Positions 47,341 to 62,447 of a stretch of 64,000 nt of DNA are shown in pieces (the first letter of the stretch is position 1; every line of letters begins with the position of its first letter). The translations under genes were made by a program, and so were the position numbers. Below the pieces are notes generated by a model. It had not been told where the DNA came from. It ran no database searches and saw only the letters and a list, made by a program, of their open reading frames with translations. The stretch is from Leeia aquatica (GTDB lineage Bacteria > Pseudomonadota > Gammaproteobacteria > Burkholderiales > Leeiaceae), in contig NZ_JABAIM010000001.1 in assembly GCF_012641365.1 (NCBI RefSeq), positions 310,001 through 374,000 on the forward strand. The letters run 5' to 3'.

Positions 47341-48282
47341 TTACAGACCCAGCGACTTTTTCACCGCAGGCAAGCCTTCCTTGCCATCCAGTGTGGTCAC
47401 ACCGGCCAGCCACTTGTCCAGTACCGACGGGTTCTTGCGCAACCATTCCTTGGCGGCTGCATTTGGCTTGGTTTTGTTCATGATGGAACCCATCACCATG
47501 TTTTCCATCGGCAGCGTGAACTGCAGGTTGCTCAGCAGCTTGCCGACATTCGGGCAGCGGGTACTGTAATCGTTGGCAGTCACCGTGTAGACCTTGGCTT
47601 CGCCCAGGTTAGGGCCAAAATACTTGTCGCCGCCGGTCAGGTAGGTCATCTTGAACTTGACGTTCATCGGATGCGGTTCCCAACCCAGGAACACAACCCA
47701 CTTGTTCTGCGCCACCGCGCGCTCCACTTCAGCCAGCATGCCGGCCTCACTGGATTCAACGACCTTGAAATCCTTCATGCCGAACTCGTTGGCCTTGATC
47801 ATGTCCATGACCAGCTTGTTGCCATCGTTGCCCGGCTCAATACCGTAAATCTTGCCACCCAGTTTGTCCTTGAATTTGCCGATATCGGCAAAACTCTTCA
47901 GACCACCCGCGGCTACATAGCTGGGCACGGCCAGCGTGTACTTGGCCCCCACCAGATTCGGTGCAGGCAGAACCACCAGCTGCTTACCCTTGATGAACGG
48001 CTCGATCATCGGGGTCTGGCTTGGATTCCAGTAGCCCAGGTACACATCGAGTTGCTTGTGCTGCAAACCCGCAAACGTCACCGGCACAGAAGAAATGGTA
48101 GTAGAGGTTTTGTAGCCCAGGCCTTCCAGCACCGTCGAGGCCAGCCCGGTCGTCGCGGCAATGTCGGTCCAGCCCACATCGGCAAACCGGACTTTCTCAC
48201 AGCTCGCAGGATCGGCGGCCATGACCATGGGACTACATGCTGCAAGACTGAGAACCACAAACATCTGACGTGCTTTGCTCAT
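47341..48282 (-). CDS. Choline/betaine ABC transporter binding protein, ChoX-like copy 1
   Basis: Periplasmic receptor for quaternary ammonium compounds. 313 residues with a signal peptide (MSKARQMFVVLSLAACSPMVMAA read as two parts). The aromatic box that cages the trimethylammonium group in Sinorhizobium ChoX is matched by Trp38 (GWTD), Trp85 (LGYWNP), Tyr115 (AKYTLAVP) and Trp201 (GWEPHPMN). Last gene of the choV-choW-regulator-choX2-choX1 series, 242 bases after copy 2. Choline and betaine cannot be told apart by eye. Confidence 0.88.
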   Translation of the reverse strand: MSKARQMFVVLSLAACSPMVMAADPASCEKVRFADVGWTDIAATTGLASTVLEGLGYKTSTTISSVPVTFAGLQHKQLDVYLGYWNPSQTPMIEPFIKGKQLVVLPAPNLVGAKYTLAVPSYVAAGGLKSFADIGKFKDKLGGKIYGIEPGNDGNKLVMDMIKANEFGMKDFKVVESSEAGMLAEVERAVAQNKWVVFLGWEPHPMNVKFKMTYLTGGDKYFGPNLGEAKVYTVTANDYSTRCPNVGKLLSNLQFTLPMENMVMGSIMNKTKPNAAAKEWLRKNPSVLDKWLAGVTTLDGKEGLPAVKKSLGL

Positions 48283-48524
48283 CTTCCACTCTCCTGTGAG
48301 GTGCTTAACCTGAATTCAGCAAGATATTGTTGTCGTGCATGGCGTTCCACCCAACCGTCTGGAGACGGCGCAGGCTGGATCAGTACAACCGCACCGAACT
48401 GCGGTCGGTTACGGCCATCTGCGAGGGATAGCGTGACATGCCGGTGCACCTTGACTTGTATCAAGGCGACCGTGATTTGCCCACAGTCGCCGATGCAGCT
48501 ACACCGGCGCCCGGCCTGCGGGGA

Positions 48525-49484
48525 CTACTGCCCCAGCGAGGCCGTGACCGCAGCCAGCCCGTCCTTGCCGTCCAGGGTGGTCACACCATTGAGCCAGGTT
48601 TTCAGCACATCCGGATTTTTGGCCAGCCAGGCCTTGGCCGCAGCATCAGGCTTGACCTTGTCCATCAAGGCCCCCATGACTTCGTTTTCCATCTTCAGGC
48701 TAAATTGCAGGTTATTCAGCAGCTTGGCCACATTGCTGCAGCGCTGCATGTAGTCGGGAGCCACCACAGTGTAGACCTTGGCCTCGCCAAAGTTGGGGCC
48801 GAATACCTTGTCACCACCCGACAGATAAGTGAGCTTGTAGTTGACGTTCATCGGGTGGGGTTCCCATGCCAGGAACACGATCCAGCGCTTCTGGCCGACG
48901 GCACGCTGCACTTCAGACAACATGCCCTTCTCCCCCCATTCCACCAGCAGGAAATCCTTGAGGTTGAAAGTATTCTTGTCGATCATGTCCCTGATCAGGC
49001 GGTTACCGTCATTACCCGGCTCAATGCCATAAATGTTGTAACCCAGCTTTTCCTTGAACTTGACCAGATCGGCAAAGGCTTTCAGGCCGCCTTCTGCAGC
49101 ATAGCTCGGCACCGCCAGGGTGTACTTGGCACCCGTCAGGTTAGGCGTTGGCAAGACCTTGACATCCCCGCTCTTCACAAAGGGTGCGATATCCGCATCC
49201 ATGCTGGGCTTCCAGTAGCCCAGAAAGAAGTCATACTTCTTGCTCTTGAGGCCATTGAACGTGGCTTGCACCGTTCCGACCACCGGCAGCACCTTGTATC
49301 CCAGCCCGCGAAGTACCGTTGTCGTCAATGCGGTCGTCGCTGTGATGTCCGTCCAGTCCACCTCGGCAATACGCACCGAGGCGCATTGCTCCGACTCAGC
49401 CGCGCCAGCGGGCAAAGTGACCAACACACTGGCTGCAGACAGCAAGCTCAGACCAAGGGGTTTTGCACGTAAAGCAAACTGCAT
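48525..49484 (-). CDS. Choline/betaine ABC transporter binding protein, ChoX-like copy 2
   Basis: Paralogue of copy 1, clearly homologous along its full length. 319 residues from ATG 49484 (GGAGAG upstream), with a signal peptide ending PAGAA. The same aromatic cage is kept: Trp44 (VDWTD), Trp91 (GYWKP), Tyr121 (AKYTLAVP) and Trp207 (AWEPHPMN). Residues around the cage differ (GYWNPS versus GYWKPS, GWEP versus AWEP), so ligand choice or affinity may differ. It lies just downstream of the GbdR-type regulator. Confidence 0.88.
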   Translation of the reverse strand: MQFALRAKPLGLSLLSAASVLVTLPAGAAESEQCASVRIAEVDWTDITATTALTTTVLRGLGYKVLPVVGTVQATFNGLKSKKYDFFLGYWKPSMDADIAPFVKSGDVKVLPTPNLTGAKYTLAVPSYAAEGGLKAFADLVKFKEKLGYNIYGIEPGNDGNRLIRDMIDKNTFNLKDFLLVEWGEKGMLSEVQRAVGQKRWIVFLAWEPHPMNVNYKLTYLSGGDKVFGPNFGEAKVYTVVAPDYMQRCSNVAKLLNNLQFSLKMENEVMGALMDKVKPDAAAKAWLAKNPDVLKTWLNGVTTLDGKDGLAAVTASLGQ

Positions 49485-49550
49485 CGACACTCTCCAGTTC
49501 AATTGGAACAACGATGGCAGCCAGCCTGAATCACCGGCATGACAAACAGA

Positions 49551-50531
49551 TTACATCACAGAATGGTGGGTTTCTGGCTGCCTTTCCTTGCTGGGCGGAT
49601 AGCCGAACACCCCCCGGTAAGACTTGCTGAAATGCGAAGAGGACTGGAAGCCACAGGCGACCGTCACCTCCATCACCGACATACTGGTTTGCAGTAACAG
49701 CTCACGCGCCCGCCGCAAGCGTAAATCGAGGTAATACTGTGCCGGGGTGGTACCCAGGTAGCGTTTGAACAAACGTTCCAGATGTCGTAATGACAAACCC
49801 AGGTCCTCCGCCAGCTTTTCCAGCGAGACCGGATTCTCGATATTGTTTTCCATGGCAATGGCGGCTTCGAGCAGGGACTCGTGACCCGACCCAATACGCG
49901 CCACCAGCGGAATATGCTGCAGGTCCTTCTCATCGCGAATGCGCTCGACAATGAATTGCTCGGACACATCCGCCGCCAGACTCTTGCCGCCTTTCTGGCG
50001 AATGATGTTCAGCATGAGATCGAGCGGCGCAGTGCCGCCACTACAGGTAAAGCGGTCACGGTCCATCACAAACAGCTCACTGCTGAAATGAATGGCCGGG
50101 AACTCCTCGCGAATGGCAGACAGGTTCTCCCAGTGGATGGAGCAGCGATAACCGTTCAGCACCCCCGCCTTGGCCAGCGCAAAGGTACCCGTGCACAAGG
50201 CACCCAACGGCACCCCAGCTTGCGCATAACGGCGCAGCGTGCTGATCACCCGCTCGTCCACCACCTCACGGATGCCGGTACCACCACAGACAAACAACAC
50301 ATCAGGCTGCGGTACCTCTTCCGGCTTACAGGTAGGGGCCAGGGTCAAACCATTGCTGGCGGCCACCGGCGCATCGTGACAGCTGATCACCGACCAGCGG
50401 TACAACTTCTTGCGGCTCAGGTAATTGGCCATCCGCAAGGGCTCCACCGCATTGGTGAACGCGATCATGGAAAAATTCGGCAACACCAGAAACCCGATAT
50501 GGGCAATGTTGGCGATCTGTTGCGGTGACAT
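49551..50531 (-). CDS. GlxA/GbdR-type AraC-family regulator
   Basis: A 326-residue transcription activator. An N-terminal DJ-1/PfpI-like (GATase1) domain (about 10-190) contains GALCTGTFALAKAG, and a C-terminal AraC helix-turn-helix domain (about 225-320) contains SVMEVTVACGFQSSSHFSKSYRGVFG. GbdR of Pseudomonas has this architecture, senses glycine betaine and dimethylglycine, and activates gbc, dgc and transport genes. Lying within the betaine uptake genes, it is very probably the local GbdR. Start at ATG 50531. Confidence 0.87.
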   Translation of the reverse strand: MSPQQIANIAHIGFLVLPNFSMIAFTNAVEPLRMANYLSRKKLYRWSVISCHDAPVAASNGLTLAPTCKPEEVPQPDVLFVCGGTGIREVVDERVISTLRRYAQAGVPLGALCTGTFALAKAGVLNGYRCSIHWENLSAIREEFPAIHFSSELFVMDRDRFTCSGGTAPLDLMLNIIRQKGGKSLAADVSEQFIVERIRDEKDLQHIPLVARIGSGHESLLEAAIAMENNIENPVSLEKLAEDLGLSLRHLERLFKRYLGTTPAQYYLDLRLRRARELLLQTSMSVMEVTVACGFQSSSHFSKSYRGVFGYPPSKERQPETHHSVM

Positions 50532-50616: not shown

Positions 50617-51498
50617 TCAGCTCATGGCTTGCTGCTTGCCACGGCCATTGCCAAAGGTCTCGGTAATACGATCCAGTATCACCGCCAACAAGACCACTGA
50701 CAAGCCCCCCTCTGCGCCTGGGCCGATCTGGACATTCGCCATCCCGCGCATGACAGGCTCCCCCAAACCACCCGCCCCCACAAATGAAGCAATAATGATC
50801 ATGGAGAGTACAAGCATAATGGTCTGATTCACCCCGGCCATGATGGAAGGCAATGCCGCGGGGATTTGTACCTTCAGCAGCAACTGCGTGCTCGTACAGC
50901 CAAAAGCATGACCTGCCTCCACCAATTCTTTGTTCACTTGGCGTAATCCCAGTGAGGTCATGCGCACAGAAGCGGGCATTGCAAAAATCATGGCCGCCAG
51001 CAGCGCAGGCACCAGTCCCAGCCCAAACAAGCTCACCGCAGGAATCAGGTACACAAAAGCCGGCATGGTCTGCATAAAATCCATTACAGGTCGCAACAAG
51101 GCTTCAACCGTCTTGTTGCGGGCGGCCCAGATGCCTAGCGGAATACCGCAAGCCAGACTGAGAATGCTGCTACTTAGCACCAAGGCCAAGGTCTTCATTG
51201 TGTCTTCCCACATGCCGATCACAATGATAAAGCTCAAAGAGGCCAACACGAACAGCGCAAATCGCCATCCTCGCCGCCAATACCCCAAAGCGATAAAAAT
51301 CAGAATTATCAGCCAACTTGGAGCATTGACTAGAACACTCTCAAAGGCAGTGGCCATAGACAGCACCTTCCCGCCGATGACATCCAGCACCTTCCCAAAG
51401 TGTTCAATGACATATTTGACCCCTGTTTCCGCCCCATCACCAACCGGCAAATTCTCATGGTGCCGTTCAAGCAGTTGACGCAATGCATCTTCAGACAT
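50617..51498 (-). CDS. choW: Glycine betaine/choline ABC transporter permease (ProW/ChoW)
   Basis: A 293-residue inner-membrane permease with about six helices and the ABC-coupling EAA loop (ASVRMTSLGLRQVNKELVEAGHAFG). The hydrophilic N terminus of about 60 residues precedes the first helix, as in ProW-type permeases. I chose ATG 51498, with GAGG upstream; it overlaps the choV stop by eight bases, so translation is coupled. Works with ChoV and the ChoX proteins. Confidence 0.9.
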   Translation of the reverse strand: MSEDALRQLLERHHENLPVGDGAETGVKYVIEHFGKVLDVIGGKVLSMATAFESVLVNAPSWLIILIFIALGYWRRGWRFALFVLASLSFIIVIGMWEDTMKTLALVLSSSILSLACGIPLGIWAARNKTVEALLRPVMDFMQTMPAFVYLIPAVSLFGLGLVPALLAAMIFAMPASVRMTSLGLRQVNKELVEAGHAFGCTSTQLLLKVQIPAALPSIMAGVNQTIMLVLSMIIIASFVGAGGLGEPVMRGMANVQIGPGAEGGLSVVLLAVILDRITETFGNGRGKQQAMS

Positions 51499-52669
51499 GG
51501 AGGCCTCGCTGTGCAATTTTGGAAAGGACGCTACCCGCCGTGATCACACCCAGGTAGTGGCCGTGATCATCCATCACCGGTACCGGCAAGCTTTGCCCGG
51601 TGACACGGGGCAGGATGGCCTGCAGCGCAGCCTGATGGCTGATGGGCTCGACCTTGATCAAATCATCCTGCGACAGAGAATTCCCTGCCTGCAAGCGGAG
51701 GCGCTCAGCGCTGACCAGCCCGAGGCAACGCTGGTCAGCGGAGAGACAGGCGCACCATGGGTGGCCGTTGACGCGCTGAATGTCCGGGGTTTGCCCCAGC
51801 TGCACCTGATGGGCCGCATGCTCGTCCAGCAGATCCTTGGCCAGCAGATAGCGCGAGGTATCTACGCTCTTGAAGAATTCACGCACATACTCATCCGCCG
51901 GGTTCTCGATGATGTCTTGCGGGGTGCCCACCTGTACCAGACGACCGCCCTCCATGATGGCGATGCGGGTACCGATGCGAAGCGCCTCTTCCAGATCGTG
52001 TGACACAAAGAAAATGGTGCGTTGATGCTCGCGCTGCAGGTTGAGCAGCACATCCTGCATTTCGTGCCGCTTGAGCGGGTCCAGCGCCGAGAATGCTTCG
52101 TCCATCAGCATCAGGGACGGATTGACCGTCAGCGCACGGGCGAGACCCACCCGCTGCTGCATGCCACCGGAGAGCTGATGCGGATACTTGTCCGTGACCT
52201 GCCCCAGCCCCACCTGCTGCAATACCTCAAAGGCCTTTTTCTCGCGCTCCTTGCGCCCGACCCCAGCCACTTCCAGACCAAATGCGGCATTGGCCAGTAC
52301 CGTACGGTGCGGCATCAGGGCAAAGCTCTGAAACACCATGCTCATGTCGGTGCGACGCAGTTTGACCAACTGCTTTGGTGACATTTTGGCGACGTCCTGA
52401 CCATCGATGATGATCTTGCCATCGGTGGGCTCGACCAGCCGGTTGATCAGACGGATCAAGGTGGATTTGCCGGAGCCGGACAGGCCCATCAGCACGAAGA
52501 TTTCCCCCGGATTCACCTTGAACGAAACATTATTGACACCAATCACTTGCCCGGTCTGCGAAAGAATATCCTCTTTCTTCTTACCTTGACGGAGCAGGTC
52601 GAGTGCCACTTTGGGCTGGTCGCCAAACACCTTGACCAGATTTTCGACAACGATCTTTGCTTCTGGCAT
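51491..52669 (-). CDS. choV: Glycine betaine/choline ABC transporter ATPase (ProV/ChoV)
   Basis: A 392-residue ABC ATPase: Walker A GLSGSGKST, signature LSGGMQQRVGLARAL, Walker B LMLMDEAFSALDP, and the N-terminal KVALDLLRQGKKKEDI extension typical of the OpuA/ProV family. The C-terminal about 110 residues resemble a CBS region, used for osmotic sensing in OpuA-type ATPases. ATG follows GGGGGAG. First gene of the transport series; upstream region 52670-52890 carries a perfect FNR-type palindrome. Confidence 0.92.
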   Translation of the reverse strand: MPEAKIVVENLVKVFGDQPKVALDLLRQGKKKEDILSQTGQVIGVNNVSFKVNPGEIFVLMGLSGSGKSTLIRLINRLVEPTDGKIIIDGQDVAKMSPKQLVKLRRTDMSMVFQSFALMPHRTVLANAAFGLEVAGVGRKEREKKAFEVLQQVGLGQVTDKYPHQLSGGMQQRVGLARALTVNPSLMLMDEAFSALDPLKRHEMQDVLLNLQREHQRTIFFVSHDLEEALRIGTRIAIMEGGRLVQVGTPQDIIENPADEYVREFFKSVDTSRYLLAKDLLDEHAAHQVQLGQTPDIQRVNGHPWCACLSADQRCLGLVSAERLRLQAGNSLSQDDLIKVEPISHQAALQAILPRVTGQSLPVPVMDDHGHYLGVITAGSVLSKIAQRGLHV

Positions 52670-52780: not shown

Positions 52781-52794
52781 TTGATCTGGATCAA
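52781..52794. promoter_or_regulatory. Perfect FNR/ANR-type palindrome upstream of choV
   Basis: TTGATCTGGATCAA matches the consensus TTGAT-N4-ATCAA at all ten fixed positions. It lies about 119 bases before the choV start. I do not see a convincing -10 at the standard spacing for class II activation. The rest of 52670-52890 holds no gene or other clear signal. Confidence 0.55.
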
Positions 52795-52893
52795 GTACTA
52801 CGATATAAGGCTGGGCGCTGCATGGGTAACGGGATGGCGACAGGAACATGACGCGATCCGACATGCCATCAACATGGTGAAACCGCATGAAAA

Positions 52894-52922
52894 AAGCGGA
52901 TGTTCATCACAAACATCCGCTT
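52894..52922 (-). terminator. Terminator of the dgc-etf-gbc operon
   Basis: 11-base stem AAGCGGATGTT / AACATCCGCTT with a 7-base loop. On the minus strand TTTTTT follows. It closes the series ending with gbcB and separates it from the choV promoter region. Confidence 0.85.
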
Positions 52923-52931
52923 CCTCTGCTG

Positions 52932-54023
52932 TTACCGATCCAGCACCACGTCTGACAATGGCACGCTGCAACAGGGTAAGATGAAGCCCTGATCAATTTC
53001 CCGCTGTCGAATTCCCCCTGCATGCTTCATGTCTACCTGCCCGGACAGCATTTTGGTCTTGCAGGTACCGCACAACCCTTGGGTACAGGACGAGGCCAAG
53101 CGCATGCCTGTGGCCTTGGCGGCCGCCAGAATGGTTTGCGGCGGTGCGCAGCGCACTTCATCGCCACTCTTGGCAAAACGGATGGTGTAACCCTCTCCCG
53201 CAGCCGCAGCAGGCGGCTGCGCCTCTTCCGCCCCGCCCATCAGGGTTTCAAAGGCAAAACTTTCCTCATGGTACTGCTGCATGTTGAAACCAGCCGCTTC
53301 CAGTATCTTGCGCACCGCTGCCATATAAGGCGCGGGACCACAGGTAAACACTTCCCGTTCACGGAAATCCGGTGCGATGTTGCTCAGCGTCGCCAGCGAC
53401 AGGAAGCCTTGATAACCCGCATAGTCACGGTCTGCACCAGCACGCTCGCAGATGACCGCGTGACGGAAGCTCGGGTTATTGCGGGCCAGTGCCTGCTGCT
53501 CACGGGCAAAGATCACGTCAGCCGGAGAGCGGGCACTGTGGACAAACACCACGTCCCGATCCAGCACCAGATCGGTCAATGCGCGAGACATCGACATCAG
53601 CGGCGTAATCCCGCTACCGGCAGACAGAAACAGATACTTCGGCCGGTCATGCAAAAAGCAGCTGAATTCGCCAGAAGGCCCCAGCACCTTGACCGTCTGG
53701 CCGACCTGCATATGGTCATGCAGCCAGTTGGACACCGGCCCATTCGGTACCCGCTTCACCGTAATCGAGACGGTATCCGGCCGGGTGGGTGTGCTGGAGA
53801 GCGTATAGCAGCGGTTGATGGCTGCCCCGTTGATCTCCAGCTCCAGGGTAATGAATTGCCCCGGCAGATAGCGAAAGCGCCGTGGCTGCTGGCTGCGAAA
53901 CACAAAGGTTTTCACATCATGGGTTTCGTCCCGCACCAGCACGCACTCCAGCGTGTCGTCCGTGCCGGGCTGCCACAGGGCAGGCTCCGCCATGTTGAAG
54001 TCGGGCAAAGGTGCAGCAGCCAT
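52932..54023 (-). CDS. gbcB: Glycine betaine monooxygenase reductase subunit
   Basis: NAD(P)H-dependent reductase that feeds electrons to the Rieske oxygenase GbcA. The 363-residue protein has an FAD domain (RFRYLPGQFITLE, RCYTLSS), an NAD domain (FLSAGSGITPLMSM, EVFTCGPAPYM) and a C-terminal plant-type [2Fe-2S] ferredoxin domain with SSCTQGLCGTC and a later CC pair. This order matches GbcB of Pseudomonas. It follows gbcA by 13 bases and is last in the operon. Confidence 0.92.
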   Translation of the reverse strand: MAAAPLPDFNMAEPALWQPGTDDTLECVLVRDETHDVKTFVFRSQQPRRFRYLPGQFITLELEINGAAINRCYTLSSTPTRPDTVSITVKRVPNGPVSNWLHDHMQVGQTVKVLGPSGEFSCFLHDRPKYLFLSAGSGITPLMSMSRALTDLVLDRDVVFVHSARSPADVIFAREQQALARNNPSFRHAVICERAGADRDYAGYQGFLSLATLSNIAPDFREREVFTCGPAPYMAAVRKILEAAGFNMQQYHEESFAFETLMGGAEEAQPPAAAAGEGYTIRFAKSGDEVRCAPPQTILAAAKATGMRLASSCTQGLCGTCKTKMLSGQVDMKHAGGIRQREIDQGFILPCCSVPLSDVVLDR

Positions 54024-54036
54024 GCACGGAACTCCC

Positions 54037-55302
54037 TTACTTGATGTAGGCCGACAGGCGGTTGATGTACCAGTTGCTGAACTTTTCGACCAGCGTCTCA
54101 GTATAGGGGGAGTACGGGCCAGGGCGATAGGCCGGGCTCTTCACCCCCAGATGAGACTCTTCAACCAGACGGCGGTCCTGTGCATTGGTGGCGTCCCAAA
54201 CAGCCGTCATGTTGTCGATCTGGTAATCCACGCCTTCCACGGCATCCTTGTGCACGAGCCACTTGGTGCGCACCAGTGTACGGTCTTGATCCAGCGGCAT
54301 CACCATGAAGGTCACAATATGATCCCCCATGAAATGGTGCCAGCTATTCGGCTGGGTCCAGAACGACAGGCCTCCGATTGCGCCATCTTCAAAATTCGCC
54401 AGCAAGCGATTACAGGCGCGGCGGGTATTGAGGGTCTGTGATTCGCCAGTCTTGTCCAGCGGCATGCGCTGGGTGCGGAAGCCAGAGATCATGCTGTCCA
54501 GACGGTCTACCTCCGCCGACGGCAAGCCCATGGACTCCCACTTGGCGTGGCGTTCTGCCACCATGGCATCATAGCGACGCACACCTTCATCGGTTTCCGG
54601 CGTAGGCGCGAAACCATAGCTGTAGGCATACAGGGAAATGGTCAGCTCGGGATGGTTGCCGGTGCAGTGGTAGCACTCCCGGTTGTTTTCCATCGTCAGC
54701 TTCCAGTTGCCCTGCTCGATGATGTCGATCTGCTTGGCAATCTTGGTATTCGCCACCTGGTGCGGGGCGATATACGGCGTCATGGTGGCGGCCAGTTCTT
54801 CGAAATCTGCAGGCGGCTCATCCGCCAGACAGATGAACAGCAGGCCTGCCACATTCTTCAGGTGCACCGTACCAAGGCGGTGTTTGGACGGATCAAAATC
54901 CGCGCCCATATGCTCAGCAAACAGCAACTGGCCTTGCAGGTTATACGTCCACTGGTGATAAGGACAGACCAGATTGCCCACCGCACCACGCTCATCGGCG
55001 CACAGACGCGAGCCCCGGTGACGGCACACATTGTGGAAAGCGCGAATTTCACCGTCATCATCACGGACAATCAGGATCGGTTTTTCACCGACCTGAACGG
55101 TCACATAGTCGCCCGGCTCAGGCACATCCGGCTCCACACCGACATAAATCCAGTGCTTGCCGAAGATATGCTCCATGTCGGCGTCAAAGACTTCGCGGCT
55201 GGTATAGAACGGCGCTTCCAGACTGTAGCCTTGCTGACGACGGGCCAGCATGTCAGCGAGGTTCAGCGGTTTGCCATGCAGGTGAATCGGGCTGGACGAC
55301 AT
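54037..55302 (-). CDS. gbcA: Glycine betaine monooxygenase, Rieske oxygenase subunit
   Basis: Rieske non-heme iron oxygenase that demethylates glycine betaine to dimethylglycine and formaldehyde. The 421-residue protein has the [2Fe-2S] Rieske motif CRHRG...CPYHQW in its first third. The mononuclear iron region follows as ENNRECYHCTGNHPE. Stachydrine demethylase and carnitine oxygenase are relatives. The neighbouring gbcB, dgcAB and etfAB genes make betaine the best substrate call. Start at ATG 55302, 30 bases past the etfB stop. Confidence 0.92.
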   Translation of the reverse strand: MSSSPIHLHGKPLNLADMLARRQQGYSLEAPFYTSREVFDADMEHIFGKHWIYVGVEPDVPEPGDYVTVQVGEKPILIVRDDDGEIRAFHNVCRHRGSRLCADERGAVGNLVCPYHQWTYNLQGQLLFAEHMGADFDPSKHRLGTVHLKNVAGLLFICLADEPPADFEELAATMTPYIAPHQVANTKIAKQIDIIEQGNWKLTMENNRECYHCTGNHPELTISLYAYSYGFAPTPETDEGVRRYDAMVAERHAKWESMGLPSAEVDRLDSMISGFRTQRMPLDKTGESQTLNTRRACNRLLANFEDGAIGGLSFWTQPNSWHHFMGDHIVTFMVMPLDQDRTLVRTKWLVHKDAVEGVDYQIDNMTAVWDATNAQDRRLVEESHLGVKSPAYRPGPYSPYTETLVEKFSNWYINRLSAYIK

Positions 55303-55332
55303 GTGTTCTGCACTCCCCTGTTAGATGTGTGC

Positions 55333-56097
55333 TCAGAAGTCGATGAGGCGATGTTCGCGCAGGTAGTCCAGAACAACTTGCGCTTTTTCGACCACCGTAC
55401 CCTGTTTCACGACTTGACCAGCACGTCCGCCTTCATCGCTGGCGATGGCGCCTTGCATGCGGGCATGGCCTGAGAGCTTGAGTTGCGCCTTCAGTGGCCG
55501 GGCCCGACGGTTCGCAGGCTCCACCTGCCAGCACTGTTCTGAAACCGACACGACAAAACCATGGCACTGCACCACGCGCCCGGCACGTGCCAAGGCGTAG
55601 GCATAGCGGGTCGTGCCATGTGCACGGGGATGCAGGGTGATCAGTGCCGGCAAATCCACCTCCAGCTCACGTCGCAAGCCTTTGGGCAGAAACTGCACCA
55701 CGCGGGCGGTACGCCCTCGCAAACTGACCTGCAAGACATCCTGAATCACCGGCATGCCAAGCGCTGCAGCCAGCTGAAACGGCAACATGCCGCTCGACAG
55801 CCCCCCATCCGCGCGACTGCCCATCAGCACCAGCTCCTGCCCCGCCAGCGCAGCCTGCAAGGTTTCGGCAACACGTTCGTCTGCTGTGGGAATCCACTCC
55901 AGCTCTGCCACCCCCAGACCCAGATAAGCGTCCAGATCAGCCGTTTTCCCCTGGCCCGCACTCATGACCCGTAGCTGCGTACCGGGCAGTTCACGCGCCT
56001 GACACAGGGCCGCAGCGTCAGCAGGCGAGACACGCGCCCGCCCGCTTACCGGGTGTCTGCCTGGCGAAACCAGCACCGTCAGTTTGACCCCACTCAT
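55333..56097 (-). CDS. etfB: Electron transfer flavoprotein beta subunit (dimethylglycine demethylation)
   Basis: A 254-residue EtfB-like protein; with EtfA it accepts electrons from DgcAB. The AMP-binding loop of the family is recognisable around LVLMGSRADGGLSSGMLPFQLAAALG, and the C terminus VVEKAQVVLDYLREHRLIDF is typical. It diverges from housekeeping EtfB in its start (VSPGRHPVSGRARVSP). The ATG overlaps the etfA stop by four bases, so the two subunits are translated together. Confidence 0.88.
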   Translation of the reverse strand: MSGVKLTVLVSPGRHPVSGRARVSPADAAALCQARELPGTQLRVMSAGQGKTADLDAYLGLGVAELEWIPTADERVAETLQAALAGQELVLMGSRADGGLSSGMLPFQLAAALGMPVIQDVLQVSLRGRTARVVQFLPKGLRRELEVDLPALITLHPRAHGTTRYAYALARAGRVVQCHGFVVSVSEQCWQVEPANRRARPLKAQLKLSGHARMQGAIASDEGGRAGQVVKQGTVVEKAQVVLDYLREHRLIDF

Positions 56098-57206
56098 GCT
56101 GCTTTCTCCTGTTTGGCCCGTGCAGCCTTGAGCAAGTCCGCCAACGCGGCCATGAAGTCGGTGCTGTCAGCAATCACCGACAGACTGGCGCGCTTCACGA
56201 TCGGCGCACTCTCATCCAGGTTGATGGCCACCACATGGCGACATTCCTTGATCCCCTGCAGATGCTGTACCGCGCCGGAAATACCGATCGCCATGTACAA
56301 GCTGGACTGCACGGTCTTGCCAGTGGCACCCACCTGTTTGCTGCGGGGGAAGCGTCCATCATCAACGGCCACACGAGATGCACCGGTTGCCGCTCCCAGC
56401 AGGCTGGCCAGTTGCTGGAACCCCGCCATGTCACGCATGCCGTTGCCTGCGGAAAGGATGGCGTCCGCCTCCTCCAGGTCAAGGTTCTCGGGTGCGCTGC
56501 TGCTCACGCCCAGGTCACGAATCCGTTCTGGCGGGCTCGTGAATGCGGGCAGCGATTGCACCTCGCCTTGTCCACGCCACGGCAACCGGGTTTCCACTGC
56601 GTTGCGCGCCAGCATCAGGACAAACGGCATGGCGGCCACTGCAAAGCGCGCACCCGGCAACAGGCGACGAACCAGCCCTTCGGCCACCTCGACCACATCG
56701 GTGGCGACCGACCAGCGCTGTCGCGTTGCCAGCAGTCGGCCCAGTTCTGCATCTGCCCCCCGGTCCGGCATCACCAGTTGCACCGGCGCATACTGCGTCA
56801 CCACCGCTTGAATCAAGGCCAAACGCCCTTCCGGCGCAAAGTGTTGCGGATCAAACGCTGGTGCACTCAACACCACATCGGCGCCTACGACAGAGAGTTC
56901 ATCCTGGCAACTGCCCAGCACCAGAACAAGCACAGCAGTCTTGCTGTCCGCCAGCAGGGCTGCTGCGGCAATGGCTTGCCGCCCGGCTTCATCGACTGCT
57001 CCGCGATCACTGTGCAAGACCACCAGGCTATAGCGCTCGGCAGCACCCTGCAGGCGCAGTGGCAATACCTGCGCACCATGGCTTGTCTCTGGTGCCAGCT
57101 GCCCCCGCTCTCCGGTTTCCGCCCCCAGCACAATGCGCTTGAGGCCAGATGGTCCGACTACCCAAGGCCGCCGTGGATCAATCCGCGGGATGGTTCCATG
57201 ACTCAT
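56094..57206 (-). CDS. etfA: Electron transfer flavoprotein alpha subunit (dimethylglycine demethylation)
   Basis: A 370-residue FAD-binding EtfA-like subunit. The C-terminal FAD domain is clear: GATGKTVQSSLYMAIGISGAVQHLQGIKE (in parts), then VVAINLDESAPI. The N-terminal about 40 residues (IDPRRPWVVGPSGLKRIVLG) are an extension seen in the DgcAB-associated type. It lies ten bases after dgcB and overlaps etfB. Dedicated to the Dgc pathway by position. Confidence 0.9.
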   Translation of the reverse strand: MSHGTIPRIDPRRPWVVGPSGLKRIVLGAETGERGQLAPETSHGAQVLPLRLQGAAERYSLVVLHSDRGAVDEAGRQAIAAAALLADSKTAVLVLVLGSCQDELSVVGADVVLSAPAFDPQHFAPEGRLALIQAVVTQYAPVQLVMPDRGADAELGRLLATRQRWSVATDVVEVAEGLVRRLLPGARFAVAAMPFVLMLARNAVETRLPWRGQGEVQSLPAFTSPPERIRDLGVSSSAPENLDLEEADAILSAGNGMRDMAGFQQLASLLGAATGASRVAVDDGRFPRSKQVGATGKTVQSSLYMAIGISGAVQHLQGIKECRHVVAINLDESAPIVKRASLSVIADSTDFMAALADLLKAARAKQEKAA

Positions 57207-57216
57207 GTTTGCCCCC

Positions 57217-59097
57217 TCAATCTGCCAGCCGGGCCGCGACCAGCTCGGCCAGTTCGATGACCTCGGGGCGATCCCCCACCACGCCTTCCAGCATTGCCGT
57301 GCAATTCGGGCAGGCTACCGCCACTTGCGAGCTACCACTCTCGCGGACATCCTGCATGCGCATGTCCGGAATACGCCGCTCGCCGGGGATATCGGTAAAG
57401 GATGCTCCGCCACCCCAGCCACAACAGCGGGAAGTCATGCCAGAGCGGCCCATCTCGACCACCTTGATGCCGATGCCCTTGAGCACAGCACGCGGCGCCG
57501 TGGTTTCACCGTTGTAGCGCCCCAGATAGCAGGGGTCGTGGAAGGTGAGGCTGGCGTCTGGCAAAACTTCCTTCAGGCGCAAGCGCTGCTGCTGCAACAG
57601 CTCGGCAATCAGCTGGCTGTGATGCAGTACCTGAAACTCGCCACCGAAAGCCGGGTATTCATTCTTCACACAGTGGAACACATGTGGGTCCGGTGTGATG
57701 ATGTGGCGGAACTGCAGCGTCTTCCATTGCGCAATATTCTCCTTGGCCAGACGCTGGAACGTCGCCTCGTCACCCAACCGTCGTGCCAGGTCACCACAGT
57801 CACGTTCTTCACTGCCCAGCACGGCAAAGGAGAGGCCGGCGTGCTTGAGGATCAAGACCAGCGCTCGCAGTGCGCGCTGATAACGCATGTCAAACGCACC
57901 CTCACCCGCCAGCAGCAGGTAATCCACCTGCTGCCCGGCTTGCAGCACCGGCACATTCAGGTCGATCGCCCAGTTGTAACGCACAGCAACCGGAAAACCA
58001 CCCACCGTATCGGTCTGCTGCAGGTTGTCCAGCGCCTCGCCCCCTTTATTGGGCACCTCGCCACGAGTGAGGGTGACATGACGGCGCAGGTCGACCACCG
58101 CATCCACATGCTCGATCAGCATCGGACATTCCTGTACACAGGCACGGCACGTGGTACAGGACCACAGCGTATCTGCGTCGATCAACTGACCCACGATCGG
58201 CTGATCCGGTGCGCCATGATGCTGGCCCAGTGGCTTGCCCGGGTAAGGACTACCGGCAAACTGCGCGTCCGAGCCGCCAGCCATGCCCACCACCATGTCC
58301 TGAATCAGTTTCTTCGGATTCAGCGGCTGGCCCGCAGCAAACGCCGGGCAGGCGGCCTCACACTTGCCGCATTGCACGCAGGCATCGAAGGACAGCAGGC
58401 GGTTCCAGGCAAAGTCGGCCGGCTTGCCGACACCGTAGTCCCCGGCATCCAGATCCAGTGGCCGCAATCCCGTGGAACGCTCGCCGGAGAAACGCTCGGC
58501 ACGCGGGTGAAACGCCAGATGCAGCAACCCGGCCACCGCATGCTTCATCGGCCCGCCCAGGCCAATGCCCAGCACCAGCTCAGCGGTACCCACCACCAGC
58601 AGCAGCAAGGCCAGGGCGGCGATCAATTGCGCCACCGGCTGGGCTGGCAGCAGCATCAGCAGCAACATGGCGGCCGCAAACGCCAGCAGGCTATACGGCA
58701 AGCGGTTCCACGCCCCTTGTGACAAGCGTGCAGGTGGGTTTTGCCGCCGCTGGCGAATCAGCAAGGCACCTGCAAACATCAACGCGGCAAACAGCACGAT
58801 ACCCCAGTCCAGCCAGCGCCAGTACAACGTCAGCCCGTAGTTGAGCGCCACCAGCAGCAGCACGGCCACCGCACCGCCCGCCACCGCCACGTGGGCGCGG
58901 GCAATAAAGGGATCACGCGCCACCACATGGTGCAGGTCGACAAAATAGCGCTTGGGTATCGCCAGCAGGCTGGGCCAATCCACCGCAGCCGGACGGCCCT
59001 GCCGCCACAGCACACTGCGCCGCAGCAGCCCGGCGACCAGCAGCAAGGCGGCCAGCCAGAACAGCCCGGTCAAGGCATGGGCAATCGAGGCAGTCAT
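57217..59097 (-). CDS. dgcB: Dimethylglycine demethylase Fe-S subunit DgcB
   Basis: A 626-residue membrane-bound iron-sulfur oxidoreductase. About five transmembrane segments occupy residues 1-180. Two [4Fe-4S] motifs follow, CVQCGKCEAACPAF and CTTCRACVQECP. The C-terminal half has two CCG-type domains (DPCYLGRYN...CCGWGGG and VACPNC) as in heterodisulfide reductase-like proteins. It takes electrons from DgcA and the EtfAB pair connects to the respiratory chain; the exact route is unproven. One base separates it from dgcA. Confidence 0.9.
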   Translation of the reverse strand: MTASIAHALTGLFWLAALLLVAGLLRRSVLWRQGRPAAVDWPSLLAIPKRYFVDLHHVVARDPFIARAHVAVAGGAVAVLLLVALNYGLTLYWRWLDWGIVLFAALMFAGALLIRQRRQNPPARLSQGAWNRLPYSLLAFAAAMLLLMLLPAQPVAQLIAALALLLLVVGTAELVLGIGLGGPMKHAVAGLLHLAFHPRAERFSGERSTGLRPLDLDAGDYGVGKPADFAWNRLLSFDACVQCGKCEAACPAFAAGQPLNPKKLIQDMVVGMAGGSDAQFAGSPYPGKPLGQHHGAPDQPIVGQLIDADTLWSCTTCRACVQECPMLIEHVDAVVDLRRHVTLTRGEVPNKGGEALDNLQQTDTVGGFPVAVRYNWAIDLNVPVLQAGQQVDYLLLAGEGAFDMRYQRALRALVLILKHAGLSFAVLGSEERDCGDLARRLGDEATFQRLAKENIAQWKTLQFRHIITPDPHVFHCVKNEYPAFGGEFQVLHHSQLIAELLQQQRLRLKEVLPDASLTFHDPCYLGRYNGETTAPRAVLKGIGIKVVEMGRSGMTSRCCGWGGGASFTDIPGERRIPDMRMQDVRESGSSQVAVACPNCTAMLEGVVGDRPEVIELAELVAARLAD

Positions 59098-59098
59098 G

Positions 59099-61159
59099 TC
59101 AGAAATCCTTGCTCAGCCGCAGGGCATCGTAAATCGCACCGTGGATGTTGTGCATGGAGACACAGTCACCCACCCGATACAGCAGGAACTGGCCCGCAGC
59201 CAGATTCTCTGCCAGTGCCGGTTGTGGCTGCGACGCGAACAGCGCGTGAATATCGGTCTGACCCCGGTTATGCGATCTGTCCTTCAAGGTCCAGTACAGC
59301 TCGTCATTTGGTGTGATGCCGTTTTCGATCACCACCTGGTCTACCGCACGCTCTTCCTGCGCCTCGGTATACTCATTGCGCAGCACGGCAATCAGCTTGT
59401 CGCCCTCCTGGTAGACCTTATCCAGCCAGTAGTTCGGCGTCGGGATCACCCCTTGCGCATACAGGCGACGGTAGAAGATCGGGAAAGTGGTTCCCCCCAC
59501 GTCGTCTGACACCTTGACGTCCGGCGTCACCACTTCCACCGTACAGCCACGACTGGCAAGAAAGTCTGCTGCGCCAAAACCCGCATGGGTACTCACCGCG
59601 TCATACACCAGCACATTGGTCTTGGGGGCCACCTTGCCGGAAAGGATGTCCCAACTGCTGACGGCCAATCCTTCCGCCACACCCCAGTCCAGTACCTGGT
59701 CGGTAAACGAACGCCCGCCGGTGGCCAGCACCACGATATCCGGCTGTTCGGCCAGAATCATCTCTGGCGTCGCTGCGACACCCAGGCGACGGTCCACGCC
59801 CAGTCGGCGGGTTTCCATGTCGAACCAGCGCACAATGCCAGCCATCTGCTCGCGCTGTGGGGCCTTGGCCGCCAGATTGATCTGACCGCCAACCTGCTCC
59901 TGCTTCTCGAACAGCACGACATCGTGACCACGCTCACGCGACACCCGCGCGGCCTCCAGACCGGCAGGCCCGGCACCAACCACCACCACCTTGCGCTTGC
60001 GAGCAGCTTTTTCGATGATGTGCGGCATGGTGGCTTCACGGCTGGTGGCGGCGTTCTGCACGCACAGCACATCCTGACCATGGTACTGCCGGTCGATACA
60101 GTAATTGGCACCCACGCATTGCTTGATCTGGTCTTCGCGACCATCACGGATCTTCATCACCAGATAGGGGTCGGCAATATGGGCGCGGGTCATGCCCACC
60201 ATGTCCACCAGACCGCTGGCCAGAATCCGCTCGGCCTGTACAGGGTCACGAATGCTTTGCGCGTGCATCACCGGCACCTTGGAGACCGACTTGATGCCTG
60301 CAGCAAGATGCACAAACGGCTCCGGCGGCAATGCCATCGGCGGCATGCAGTTGGCCAGCGTATTGTGGGTGTCCGCCCCGGAGCCGACCACCGAGAGATA
60401 ATCAATCAAGCCGGTTTCCGACATCGCCTGTGCAATGTCCTTCAGCATGTCGTGGCTGAGGCCATCCTCATGGAACTCATCGCCACACATGCGCAGGCCG
60501 ACACAGAAGTCCGGCCCGACCGCTTCTCGCACCGCCATCAGCACTTCCTTGCCAAAGCGCATGCGGTTTTCCAGGCTGCCGCCCCATTCATCCGTGCGGA
60601 AATTGGTGCGTGGGCTCCAGAATTGGTCGATCAGGTGCTGGTGGGCCGCCGAAATCTCGATGCCATCCATCCCTGCTGCCTTGACCCGTTTGGCGGCCGC
60701 CGCAAAATCCGCGATGATGCGGCGGATCTCTTCCACCTCGATGATCTTGGCGTTACCCCGGTGTACCGGTTCGCGAATACCGGACGGGCTGACCAGGTGC
60801 GGCCAGTGCTCACCATAGTAACTGGAGCGGCGACCCATATGGGTGGCCTGGATCATGATTTTGGCACCGTGGCGATGCATGGCCTCGGCCAGACGGTTCA
60901 GGGGCTCGATCACCTTGTCGGTGGTCAGATTGACCGATTTCCACCAGCTTTGCGGACTGTCGATCGACACCGGGCTGGAGCCCCCGCAGATCGCCAGGCC
61001 AAGGCCACCCTTGGCCTTTTCTTCGTAGTAGCGGATATAGCGGTCACCCGGCAAACCACCCGGCTCGGCATACACTTCGGCGTGGGCGGTGCTGACCACA
61101 CGGTTGCGCAGGGTCAGCTGGTTGAGGGTAATCGGGGCAAACAGGTTCGGATAACGCAT
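59099..61159 (-). CDS. dgcA: Dimethylglycine demethylase flavin subunit DgcA
   Basis: A 686-residue old-yellow-enzyme fusion: FMN barrel (1-about 345), a cysteine cluster, then a pyridine-nucleotide disulfide-type dinucleotide-binding half starting VVVVGAGPAGLEAAR (391-405). It oxidatively demethylates dimethylglycine to sarcosine in the Pseudomonas pathway. The barrel contains IQATHMGRRSS and the GIEISAAHQHLIDQFWSPRTN catalytic segment. Between the halves cysteines 348, 354 and 366 are visible; the usual CxxC pair reads CVGA here. Second gene of the operon. Confidence 0.92.
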   Translation of the reverse strand: MRYPNLFAPITLNQLTLRNRVVSTAHAEVYAEPGGLPGDRYIRYYEEKAKGGLGLAICGGSSPVSIDSPQSWWKSVNLTTDKVIEPLNRLAEAMHRHGAKIMIQATHMGRRSSYYGEHWPHLVSPSGIREPVHRGNAKIIEVEEIRRIIADFAAAAKRVKAAGMDGIEISAAHQHLIDQFWSPRTNFRTDEWGGSLENRMRFGKEVLMAVREAVGPDFCVGLRMCGDEFHEDGLSHDMLKDIAQAMSETGLIDYLSVVGSGADTHNTLANCMPPMALPPEPFVHLAAGIKSVSKVPVMHAQSIRDPVQAERILASGLVDMVGMTRAHIADPYLVMKIRDGREDQIKQCVGANYCIDRQYHGQDVLCVQNAATSREATMPHIIEKAARKRKVVVVGAGPAGLEAARVSRERGHDVVLFEKQEQVGGQINLAAKAPQREQMAGIVRWFDMETRRLGVDRRLGVAATPEMILAEQPDIVVLATGGRSFTDQVLDWGVAEGLAVSSWDILSGKVAPKTNVLVYDAVSTHAGFGAADFLASRGCTVEVVTPDVKVSDDVGGTTFPIFYRRLYAQGVIPTPNYWLDKVYQEGDKLIAVLRNEYTEAQEERAVDQVVIENGITPNDELYWTLKDRSHNRGQTDIHALFASQPQPALAENLAAGQFLLYRVGDCVSMHNIHGAIYDALRLSKDF

Positions 61160-61171
61160 GGAGAAACCTCG

Positions 61172-61705
61172 TTATTTCGGCTCAACCGTGAAGATGCAGT
61201 GATCGTGGCCTTCACCGGCGCACTGGGTTTCATCGCTGGTGGTGCGGTACTGGTAGCCACAATTCTCACCCACCCAGTCCATGGCACCGGCAAACCAGCC
61301 TGCAAACATGTAACAGGCCTTGCCTTCACTCTGCGGCACCCCAGCCACCCCTTGTGCCAGCACAAAGGCAGAGTTATCCAGACGGATGCGGGCATGGCCG
61401 GTTTCGGCGTTGGCTTCCACCACCGAAAATTGCCCCCAGCCACGTTGCGACAGGCGCATAAGATAGTGGTTGAACACATCCATGCCCTTCATCTGATGCG
61501 TTCTGGCTTCGCTGTCGCACCAGAAGTAGGCGGAACGATAGCCTGCATCGTAGAGAATGGAGCTGTACTCCGGCTTGCCCATCACCAGTTCGACCGCGCG
61601 GTGGTTGTTGACGAAAAAATGGCGCGGCACATACAGCATCGGCAGACCGTTGGTCGACCAGACGCCGGTTTGCGGATCCACATCAATCGGTACTTGGGGT
61701 TGCAT
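61172..61705 (-). CDS. DUF5943/V4R-like protein leading the dgc operon
   Basis: A 177-residue protein of unknown function that regularly accompanies dgcA (PA5397 in P. aeruginosa). The ending CAGEGHDHCIFTVEPK and the fold pattern resemble the V4R (4-vinyl reductase-like) small-molecule-binding domain. ATG 61705 follows GGAGAG; a longer frame starting at 61729 lacks a ribosome site. First gene of the seven-gene catabolic series. A sensor or accessory role is inference. Confidence 0.82.
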   Translation of the reverse strand: MQPQVPIDVDPQTGVWSTNGLPMLYVPRHFFVNNHRAVELVMGKPEYSSILYDAGYRSAYFWCDSEARTHQMKGMDVFNHYLMRLSQRGWGQFSVVEANAETGHARIRLDNSAFVLAQGVAGVPQSEGKACYMFAGWFAGAMDWVGENCGYQYRTTSDETQCAGEGHDHCIFTVEPK

Positions 61706-61832
61706 GGCGCTCTCCAGTAGGCACTGCACAACGGGGGATCACGGCCCGGATGGCACCGTATCCAGCATGCAGGCATACTGCCGCAGCCACTGTGGGTGGA
61801 ATACCGCGTGACCGACAAGTTTTTGCAGGGAG

Positions 61833-61850
61833 CCGACCAGCGCAGGTCGG
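61833..61850. promoter_or_regulatory. 18-base dyad upstream of the dgc operon
   Basis: CCGACC (61833-61838), a six-base spacer AGCGCA and GGTCGG (61845-61850) form a perfect dyad, a size common for TetR-family operators. It lies between the TetR-type gene and the first dgc-operon gene. The link is inference, and it could also be a hairpin. Confidence 0.35.
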
Positions 61851-61881: not shown

Positions 61882-62436
61882 TTAGCAGACAGGCTGCAGC
61901 AATTGCCCGGGCAAATCATCCATCAATTGCTCATACATCTGCCAATCGTCCAGGCAGCGGCACAGCAAGCGGGTGCCCTCGATCCGGCTGATCGCATCCA
62001 CCGCCCGCTGCCGGGCGCATTCAGCGCTGAAGCCCTCATCTTGCAGCACGGTTTGCAAGGCAGCGATCCAGCGTCTGCTTGCCTCTCCCATGTGATGACC
62101 AAACCGTTCGCGAGCCTCGCCCATGGTATAGACATCAAGCGTACTGGCTTCCTGCCGACGCGCAGGATCCAGTCGCAACCGCTGAATGAAGCCTTGCAGG
62201 CGCTCCAGCGGGGTTCCGGCCTCCTGCAAGGCCTGCAGGCCATGATAGAAGTAATCTCCTTCAGCGGAGAGCACCACTGCGGCCATCTCGTCTTTTCCAC
62301 CCGGGAATTGAAGGTAGAGGCTGCCCTTCCCCAAACCGGTTTCAGCACTGATACGACTCAGCGTGGTGCCGTCATAGCCGTAGGTATGAAATACCCTTCG
62401 CAATTGCGCGATCAGGGCGGCACGATCAACAGCCAC
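61882..62436 (-). CDS. TetR-family transcriptional regulator
   Basis: A 184-residue regulator. The N-terminal helix-turn-helix is clear (ALIAQLRRVFHTYGYDGTTL, then SRISAETGLGKGSLYLQFPGGK), and the C-terminal ligand domain is helical. The GTG at 62436 has AGAGG seven bases upstream; the frame extends upstream without a start that fits. It follows the alpha/beta hydrolase gene by 11 bases and precedes the betaine catabolic operon. Its target may be the hydrolase, the operon, or both. Confidence 0.85.
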   Translation of the reverse strand: MAVDRAALIAQLRRVFHTYGYDGTTLSRISAETGLGKGSLYLQFPGGKDEMAAVVLSAEGDYFYHGLQALQEAGTPLERLQGFIQRLRLDPARRQEASTLDVYTMGEARERFGHHMGEASRRWIAALQTVLQDEGFSAECARQRAVDAISRIEGTRLLCRCLDDWQMYEQLMDDLPGQLLQPVC

Positions 62437-62447
62437 GCGATAACCTC

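Follow-up and report, generated by a model that had tools for sequence, protein, structure and literature searches.

A conserved candidate GbdR-type activator site within the 3′ coding end of etfB, upstream of gbcAB, in a predicted glycine betaine catabolic cluster of Leeia aquatica

Within a 64,000-nucleotide window of the Leeia aquatica genome (contig NZ_JABAIM010000001.1, positions 310,001 to 374,000), seven genes with predicted roles in glycine betaine and dimethylglycine demethylation are arranged on the minus strand in the order DUF5943-dgcA-dgcB-etfA-etfB-gbcA-gbcB, and the 3′ coding end of etfB contains a direct repeat, GTCG-N17-GTCG (55389–55413, minus strand), that we propose to be a GbdR-type activator site for gbcAB. 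We estimate a probability of roughly three in four that the window contains an ordinary betaproteobacterial glycine betaine catabolic cluster in which a DUF5943 promoter, with read-through, is joined by a separate activator site for gbcAB inside etfB. The support for this stretch of etfB as a DNA element under constraint is good, and the support for it as a GbdR-dependent promoter is moderate. Gene order alone, and annotation, would make the row one transcript; the new part is the conserved activator-type site in coding DNA, and the seven-gene row itself is ordinary. A literature search, conducted mostly without subscription papers, found no report of an etfB-internal site.

The repeat begins 81 bases before the end of the etfB stop codon and ends 86 bp before the start of gbcA. 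PMC5806209 describes CdhR half-sites of GGTCGC separated by a 15-bp spacer, which gives a 21-bp period, and calls them 'very similar' to the sites of GbdR, SouR and ArgR. Two G(G/T)TCG-type half-sites in direct repeat with a 21-bp period are present here, and the first etfB half-site in the window is AGTCG, which fits only the relaxed GTCG form. The GTCG-N17-GTCG motif was chosen after reading aligned upstream regions, and the spacing and shuffle controls came later; an initial GbdR half-site pattern was wrong and gave scattered matches only.

A stricter form of the same repeat, KGTCG-N16-KGTCG, is located upstream of DUF5943 (61813–61838, minus strand) and upstream of cbcV, the first gene behind gbcB (52838–52863, minus strand). 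A repeat is found in the same kind of place upstream of DUF5943 in 14/14 Neisseriales loci, 13 of them within the 250-base counting frame and the fourteenth just outside, and upstream of cbcV in 12/14, with the two remaining loci carrying TGTCG/CGTCG. Among these Neisseriales upstream repeats a spacing of 21 is far ahead, the remaining spacings between 10 and 32 being counted 0–4 times. The window as a whole has three instances of the strict motif (0.46 expected; 1 of 100 shuffles reaches three), the third lying inside cbcV on the opposite strand, and six of the relaxed motif (1.62 expected; 0 of 100 shuffles has as many). Elsewhere in the same genome, the longest betB frame is preceded by a repeat pair at a distance of about 90 bp.

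For the comparison of gene order we used the best 80 loci from a GbcA-anchored scan of named genomes, made with an alignment of the window and four plasmid relatives; these loci are the nearest relatives only. Rows L001–L003 and L098 were excluded prior to counting (own genome, or sequence identical to L009), and exclusion of L084, with its broken etfB frame, reduced the set of etfB-gbcA junctions from 71 to 70. The loci are related and the counts are not independent events, and the rest of the same genes serves as the control. The repeat is present at position −81 in 56 of the 70 junctions, including all 14 from Neisseriales and 42 of the 56 others, both Oxalobacteraceae among them; every other spacing is seen in 0 to 2 junctions. 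When synonymous codons were permuted within each etfB, the repeat arose on average in 7.1 of the 70 junctions and in 14 at most (200 rounds), and for the 14 Neisseriales loci only, the mean was 1.5 and the maximum 6 (1000 rounds).

The site retains rare codons. Across the 70 loci, GTA accounts for 52 of 60 valines (3.4 expected), AAA is used at 61 of 69 positions (16.7 expected), CAA at 59 of 69 (18.6 expected), and the second GTC at 57 of 57 (20.3 expected). A scan for rarity-weighted synonymous conservation, comparing nine Neisseriales loci with 14 from Burkholderiaceae and Oxalobacteraceae, places etfB codons 229–240 first of 2393 windows over the seven genes, 11.7 standard deviations above the mean, and the GC content at third codon positions (GC3) is lowest at these codons in both site-carrying groups. 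Compared against 11 loci lacking the site, the same codons are at 2.0 standard deviations (rank 103 of 2408) and GC3 is ordinary.

In some loci in which gbcA does not follow etfB, a pair precedes gbcA. In Massilia sp. PDC64 (L072), a single case, etfB and gbcA are separated, and the free DNA ahead of gbcA holds a pair at 119 bp from the gbcA match. In one gammaproteobacterial order, in which gbcA stands apart as read in one locus, a GTCG pair precedes gbcA in 19/20 loci, with a spacing of 21 bp in 11 and 22 bp in eight; these 19 include all 17 loci with a GbcA above the model cut-off, and the remaining spacings between 12 and 31 are counted 0–1 times. None of nine etfB genes without gbcA directly behind them carries the pair. 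Because the etfB repeat is conserved and constrained, and because the Massilia and gammaproteobacterial pairs are placed upstream of gbcA, a separate betaine-responsive start for gbcAB within etfB is probable. In 40 of 42 Burkholderiaceae loci gbcB is followed by a further pair, at 21 or 22 bp and counted without a spacing control, ahead of the next gene, which encodes the binding protein.

We consider it quite likely that the last part of etfB serves two purposes, encoding EtfB and providing an activator site for gbcAB. Selection on synonymous codons would then act in Neisseriales, Burkholderiaceae and Oxalobacteraceae alike. The site would follow gbcA, lying inside etfB when the two are adjacent and in intergenic DNA when they are apart, and the two demethylation steps could be adjusted separately within an apparent single operon. 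An embedded activator site in three betaproteobacterial groups would offer a test of independent control within a packed operon, and it bears on the extent to which regulatory sites influence codon usage. We infer from sequence the binding of GbdR at the etfB site, a transcript start there, and the substrate.

Several observations weigh against this interpretation. An unweighted scan of codon identity ranks the etfB stretch only 13th of 2228 windows, albeit first within etfB, and the rarity-weighted scan was designed with the rare codons already in view. For the window's etfB taken singly, 7.8% of synonymous shuffles create a pair at that place. Eight of the nine control etfB genes encode divergent proteins, and the Massilia etfB tail encodes nearly the same protein, with an alanine where the second half-site needs a valine. 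The site is absent from 14 of the 70 junctions despite gbcA following etfB; these comprise 13 from Comamonadaceae, Sphaerotilaceae or an unplaced Burkholderiales metagenome-assembled genome, plus one Paraburkholderia copy. Nine of those 13 loci also lack an exact pair in the other intergenic gaps of the searched genes, and upstream of glyA as leading gene even a looser pair is seen in just 1 of 40 loci. No sigma-70-like promoter was recognized near the etfB site by a scan that returned four sites in 14 kb with 3.9 expected. The products of the window's gbcA, gbcB and gbdR genes all score below their curated cut-offs. The loose motif also occurs 84 times in the genome, so that sequence alone proves little and it is conservation and position that carry the argument; a reversed-motif control in the same genome was uninformative, the reversed word being common. 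A search of 60 relatives with one specific, strict pattern, from which the window's own etfB departs, gave matches in two congeners only.

We judge it distinctly unlikely that the row is a seven-gene operon with a single promoter, in which the etfB tail is kept for tuning of translation by rare codons, for RNA structure or for an antisense frame. The spacing of 1–30 bp in the window, the 14 junctions that manage without the site and the lack of a sigma-70-like match near it would all suit such an operon, but the constrained bases make up a repeat whose spacing is exactly 21 bp, and this repeat recurs ahead of DUF5943 and cbcV and, with a period of 21 or 22 bp, before gammaproteobacterial gbcA. 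RNA structure as a cause of the constraint was rejected, since in three sets of sequences the folds after shuffling of columns are as good in 78, 37 and 100 cases out of 100, and the Massilia pair accompanies gbcA rather than etfB. A second possibility, unlikely but deserving some weight, is that the etfB site is real and is read by a different GATase1-AraC regulator, SouR-, ArgR- or CdhR-like, such that gbcAB and dgcAB answer different signals. The close similarity among the half-sites of these regulators, as given in PMC5806209, would permit this, and the bases between the half-sites differ among the window's three sites; yet the cluster itself includes a gbdR-like gene, and the spacing is identical at all three places, both of which count against this reading.

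It is also conceivable, albeit highly unlikely, that the Rieske enzyme uses another betaine, such as stachydrine, and that the pathway encoded by the row is not that of glycine betaine. The window oxygenase scores 492 bits against NF058607, the GbcA equivalog model with a cut-off of 670, and is thus below it. Five beta-type relatives score 461–496, an alphaproteobacterial protein 440, a canonical protein 841, an Stc2-like protein from a congener 469, which is about equal to the window protein, and L008, encoded beside a pyrroline-5-carboxylate reductase gene, 389. The cut-off is exceeded in 17 of 145 genomes of the one gammaproteobacterial order, and a class-wide GbcA search at a strict limit added one further genome of 369. 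Identity is 46% to a canonical gammaproteobacterial GbcA and 48% to Stc2, which we take to be the protein of PDB 3vca and which belongs to the same wider Rieske oxygenase family. In a tree of 46 rows, however, Stc2 forms a separate clade: the beta-type, canonical and Stc2 groups are distinct, with no sister pairing among the three resolved. Fifteen canonical rows make up one side of a branch that has no beta type, so the window protein lies outside the clade of above-cut-off sequences; the beta-type side also contains L008 and L101. Against a stachydrine role, dimethylglycine demethylase genes are linked in 68 of the 80 nearest loci, contig-cut ones included, relatives at 64% and 61.5% identity adjoin soxBDA and glyA, or dgc, glyA, betA and choline transport genes, and no proline-catabolism gene was seen among the neighboring proteins scanned.

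With the oxygenase below the GbcA cut-off and outside the canonical clade, its predicted conversion of betaine to dimethylglycine depends on gene context and linkage to dgcAB. Betaproteobacterial 'GbcA' lies outside the clade behind the curated name, and an assay of its activity should precede any transfer of names. Two Leeia congeners encode two and three further GbcA-like Rieske proteins (among L012, L100, L101, L102, L103 and L104), of which L103 is Stc2-like and L101 and L104 are near the L008 type; the genome of the window has none at that level.

The demethylation chemistry of GbcAB and DgcAB is established, and the window's proteins are predicted to perform it. Betaine would be taken up by CbcXWV and sensed by the GbdR-type regulator; GbcAB, a Rieske oxygenase with its reductase, would convert betaine to dimethylglycine, and DgcAB with its own EtfAB would convert dimethylglycine to sarcosine. 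Transcription of all seven genes would probably begin at the DUF5943 promoter and read through as far as a hairpin behind gbcB, and gbcAB would be served additionally by its own activator site, the GbdR-type 21-bp direct repeat within etfB. The genome also contains a soxA above its cut-off, with soxB, soxD and a dipeptidase, together with a glyA-sdaA pair and betBA, so that a route from choline through betaine, dimethylglycine, sarcosine, glycine and serine to pyruvate can be drawn. The GbcA model has only one other match in the genome, at 63 bits.

The genes themselves, all on the minus strand, are as follows. The row begins with DUF5943 (61172–61705; PF19367, 162.9 bits), whose product is also V4R-like at 30.5 bits, slightly below the cut-off of 31. 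Behind it are dgcA (59099–61159), encoding the OYE-type flavoprotein subunit of dimethylglycine demethylase (PF00724 and a Pyr_redox domain); dgcB (57217–59097), whose product has DUF3483 (PF11982, 298.9 bits), 4Fe-4S (Fer4) and CCG domains; and etfA (56094–57206; PF00766, PF01012) and etfB (55333–56097; PF01012), encoding the electron transfer flavoprotein alpha and beta subunits, with the embedded site in the 3′ coding end of the latter. The row is completed by gbcA (54037–55302), a beta-type Rieske oxygenase and probable glycine betaine demethylase (PF00355 and PF00848), and gbcB (52932–54023), its FAD/NAD/2Fe-2S reductase partner (PF00970, PF00175, PF00111; NF058606 386 bits, cut-off 500). 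The names gbcA and gbcB are calls from context, both proteins scoring under the NCBIfam equivalog cut-offs. The order DUF5943-dgcA-dgcB-etfA-etfB on a single strand is that of a dgcAB-etfAB locus. A literature search on the name DUF5943 found no paper; in 64 of the 80 nearest loci, as in one from Gammaproteobacteria, the gene for this V4R-like protein stands ahead of the dgc genes. Directly upstream of the row and on the same strand is a TetR-family gene (61882–62439) that has a tblastn match in none of the 80 relatives' loci.

A first-pass annotation, made from the letters of the window, had described these seven open reading frames as one operon, and their places were borne out, on the minus strand and with the expected domains, as were its gene identities and pathway, with the caveat that the gbcA and gbcB names depend on context. 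Intergenic distances from DUF5943 to gbcB are 12, 1, 10, −4, 30 and 13 bp by reading-frame coordinates, in agreement with the small gaps and four-base overlap it had listed. The strong terminator that it had placed at the end of the row corresponds to a hairpin at 52880–52932 (minus strand), which folds at −23.5 kcal/mol against −10.6 ± 2.4 for shuffles (0 of 200 as low) and is followed by a T run; a simple sigma-70 and terminator scan of the region did not list this hairpin, and it was found later by folding. The cluster continues beyond it on the same strand. Tight spacing is as expected of a single operon, but because a conserved activator-type site lies within etfB just before gbcA, that description is, judging from the sequence, probably too simple.

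How common the arrangement is was assessed by counting consecutive best tblastn matches of the searched genes, between which unsearched genes may lie. All seven genes occur in the same order on a single strand in 64 of the 80 nearest loci, and another four agree up to their contig ends. In five loci gbcAB is divergent from a dipeptidase-DUF5943-dgcAB-etfAB row, in one (L063) gbcAB comes first with dgcAB-etfAB behind on the same strand, in one (L072) the gbcAB and dgcAB-etfAB parts are split, and in five the flank has no dgc genes. The row is present in 12 of the 13 Neisseriales loci in the set, the exception being a second GbcA copy of Leeia oryzae. Most of the nearest betaproteobacterial relatives thus have the fused row as their normal arrangement, and since 64 of 80 loci share it, the earlier suggestion of a notable variant is unsupported. 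The guess that the DNA came from a Neisseriales relative was correct, the closest named genome being Leeia oryzae and Leeia belonging to Neisseriales, and its contrast with Pseudomonas is a fair one. One of the 64, L084 from Candidatus Burkholderia verschuerenii, has apparently broken dgcB and etfB frames and keeps the GTCG pair upstream of gbcA.

In P. aeruginosa, Wargo et al. (2008) reportedly described gbcAB and dgcAB-etfAB as two gene clusters under GbdR control. Both demethylation steps, the dgcAB-etfAB row and a GbdR regulator are shared with the window, whereas in the window gbcAB directly follows etfB and the oxygenase lies outside the canonical GbcA clade. Nock and Wargo (2016) are said to have described the choline catabolic locus of B. 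thailandensis. Many of the Burkholderiaceae loci examined here have the order glyA-dipeptidase-DUF5943-dgcA-dgcB-etfA-etfB-gbcA-gbcB on one strand; the window, in contrast, lacks the leading glyA and dipeptidase and has cbcVW-gbdR-cbcX behind. One canonical gammaproteobacterial locus has the same dgc-etf row, with a DgcA 63% identical to that of the window, but its gbcA is further along and on the opposite strand. PMC12093977 places pepD and a hypothetical gene before dgcAB in P. aeruginosa, and shows for Vibrio natriegens and V. fluvialis a similar pepD-hp-dgcAB-fixAB arrangement with gbcA and gbcB. It also states that gbcA and dgcA are required for growth in V. natriegens, where gbcAB is about 28 kb away, and that the genes are contiguous in some other vibrios.

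Past position 52932, the same-strand cluster extends through cbcV, cbcW, gbdR and two cbcX genes as far as 47341. These are cbcV (51491–52669), the betaine/choline ABC transporter ATPase (TIGR01186, 398 bits, above cut-off); cbcW (50617–51516), the permease (TIGR03416, 329 bits, cut-off 363); the gbdR-like regulator gene (49551–50531); and cbcX1 (48525–49511) and cbcX2 (47341–48282), choline/betaine binding proteins scoring 431 and 470 bits against TIGR03414, both above cut-off. The regulator has the GATase1-like and AraC helix-turn-helix domains of GbdR (DJ-1, PF01965, and HTH_18, PF12833), and scores 394 bits against the curated GbdR model NF052371, below its cut-off of 480, with the second-best model at 162. 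The order cbcV-cbcW-gbdR directly behind gbcB is found in 21 of the 80 loci and continues to cbcX in 16 of these 21. Two consecutive binding-protein genes (47341–49511) are present behind gbdR in the window. Upstream of cbcV, at 52781–52794, is a perfect match, TTGATNNNNATCAA, to what we take to be an FNR/ANR box, with 0.05 expected in the window; a slightly relaxed form of this pattern is found in the corresponding gap in 7 of the 14 Neisseriales loci.

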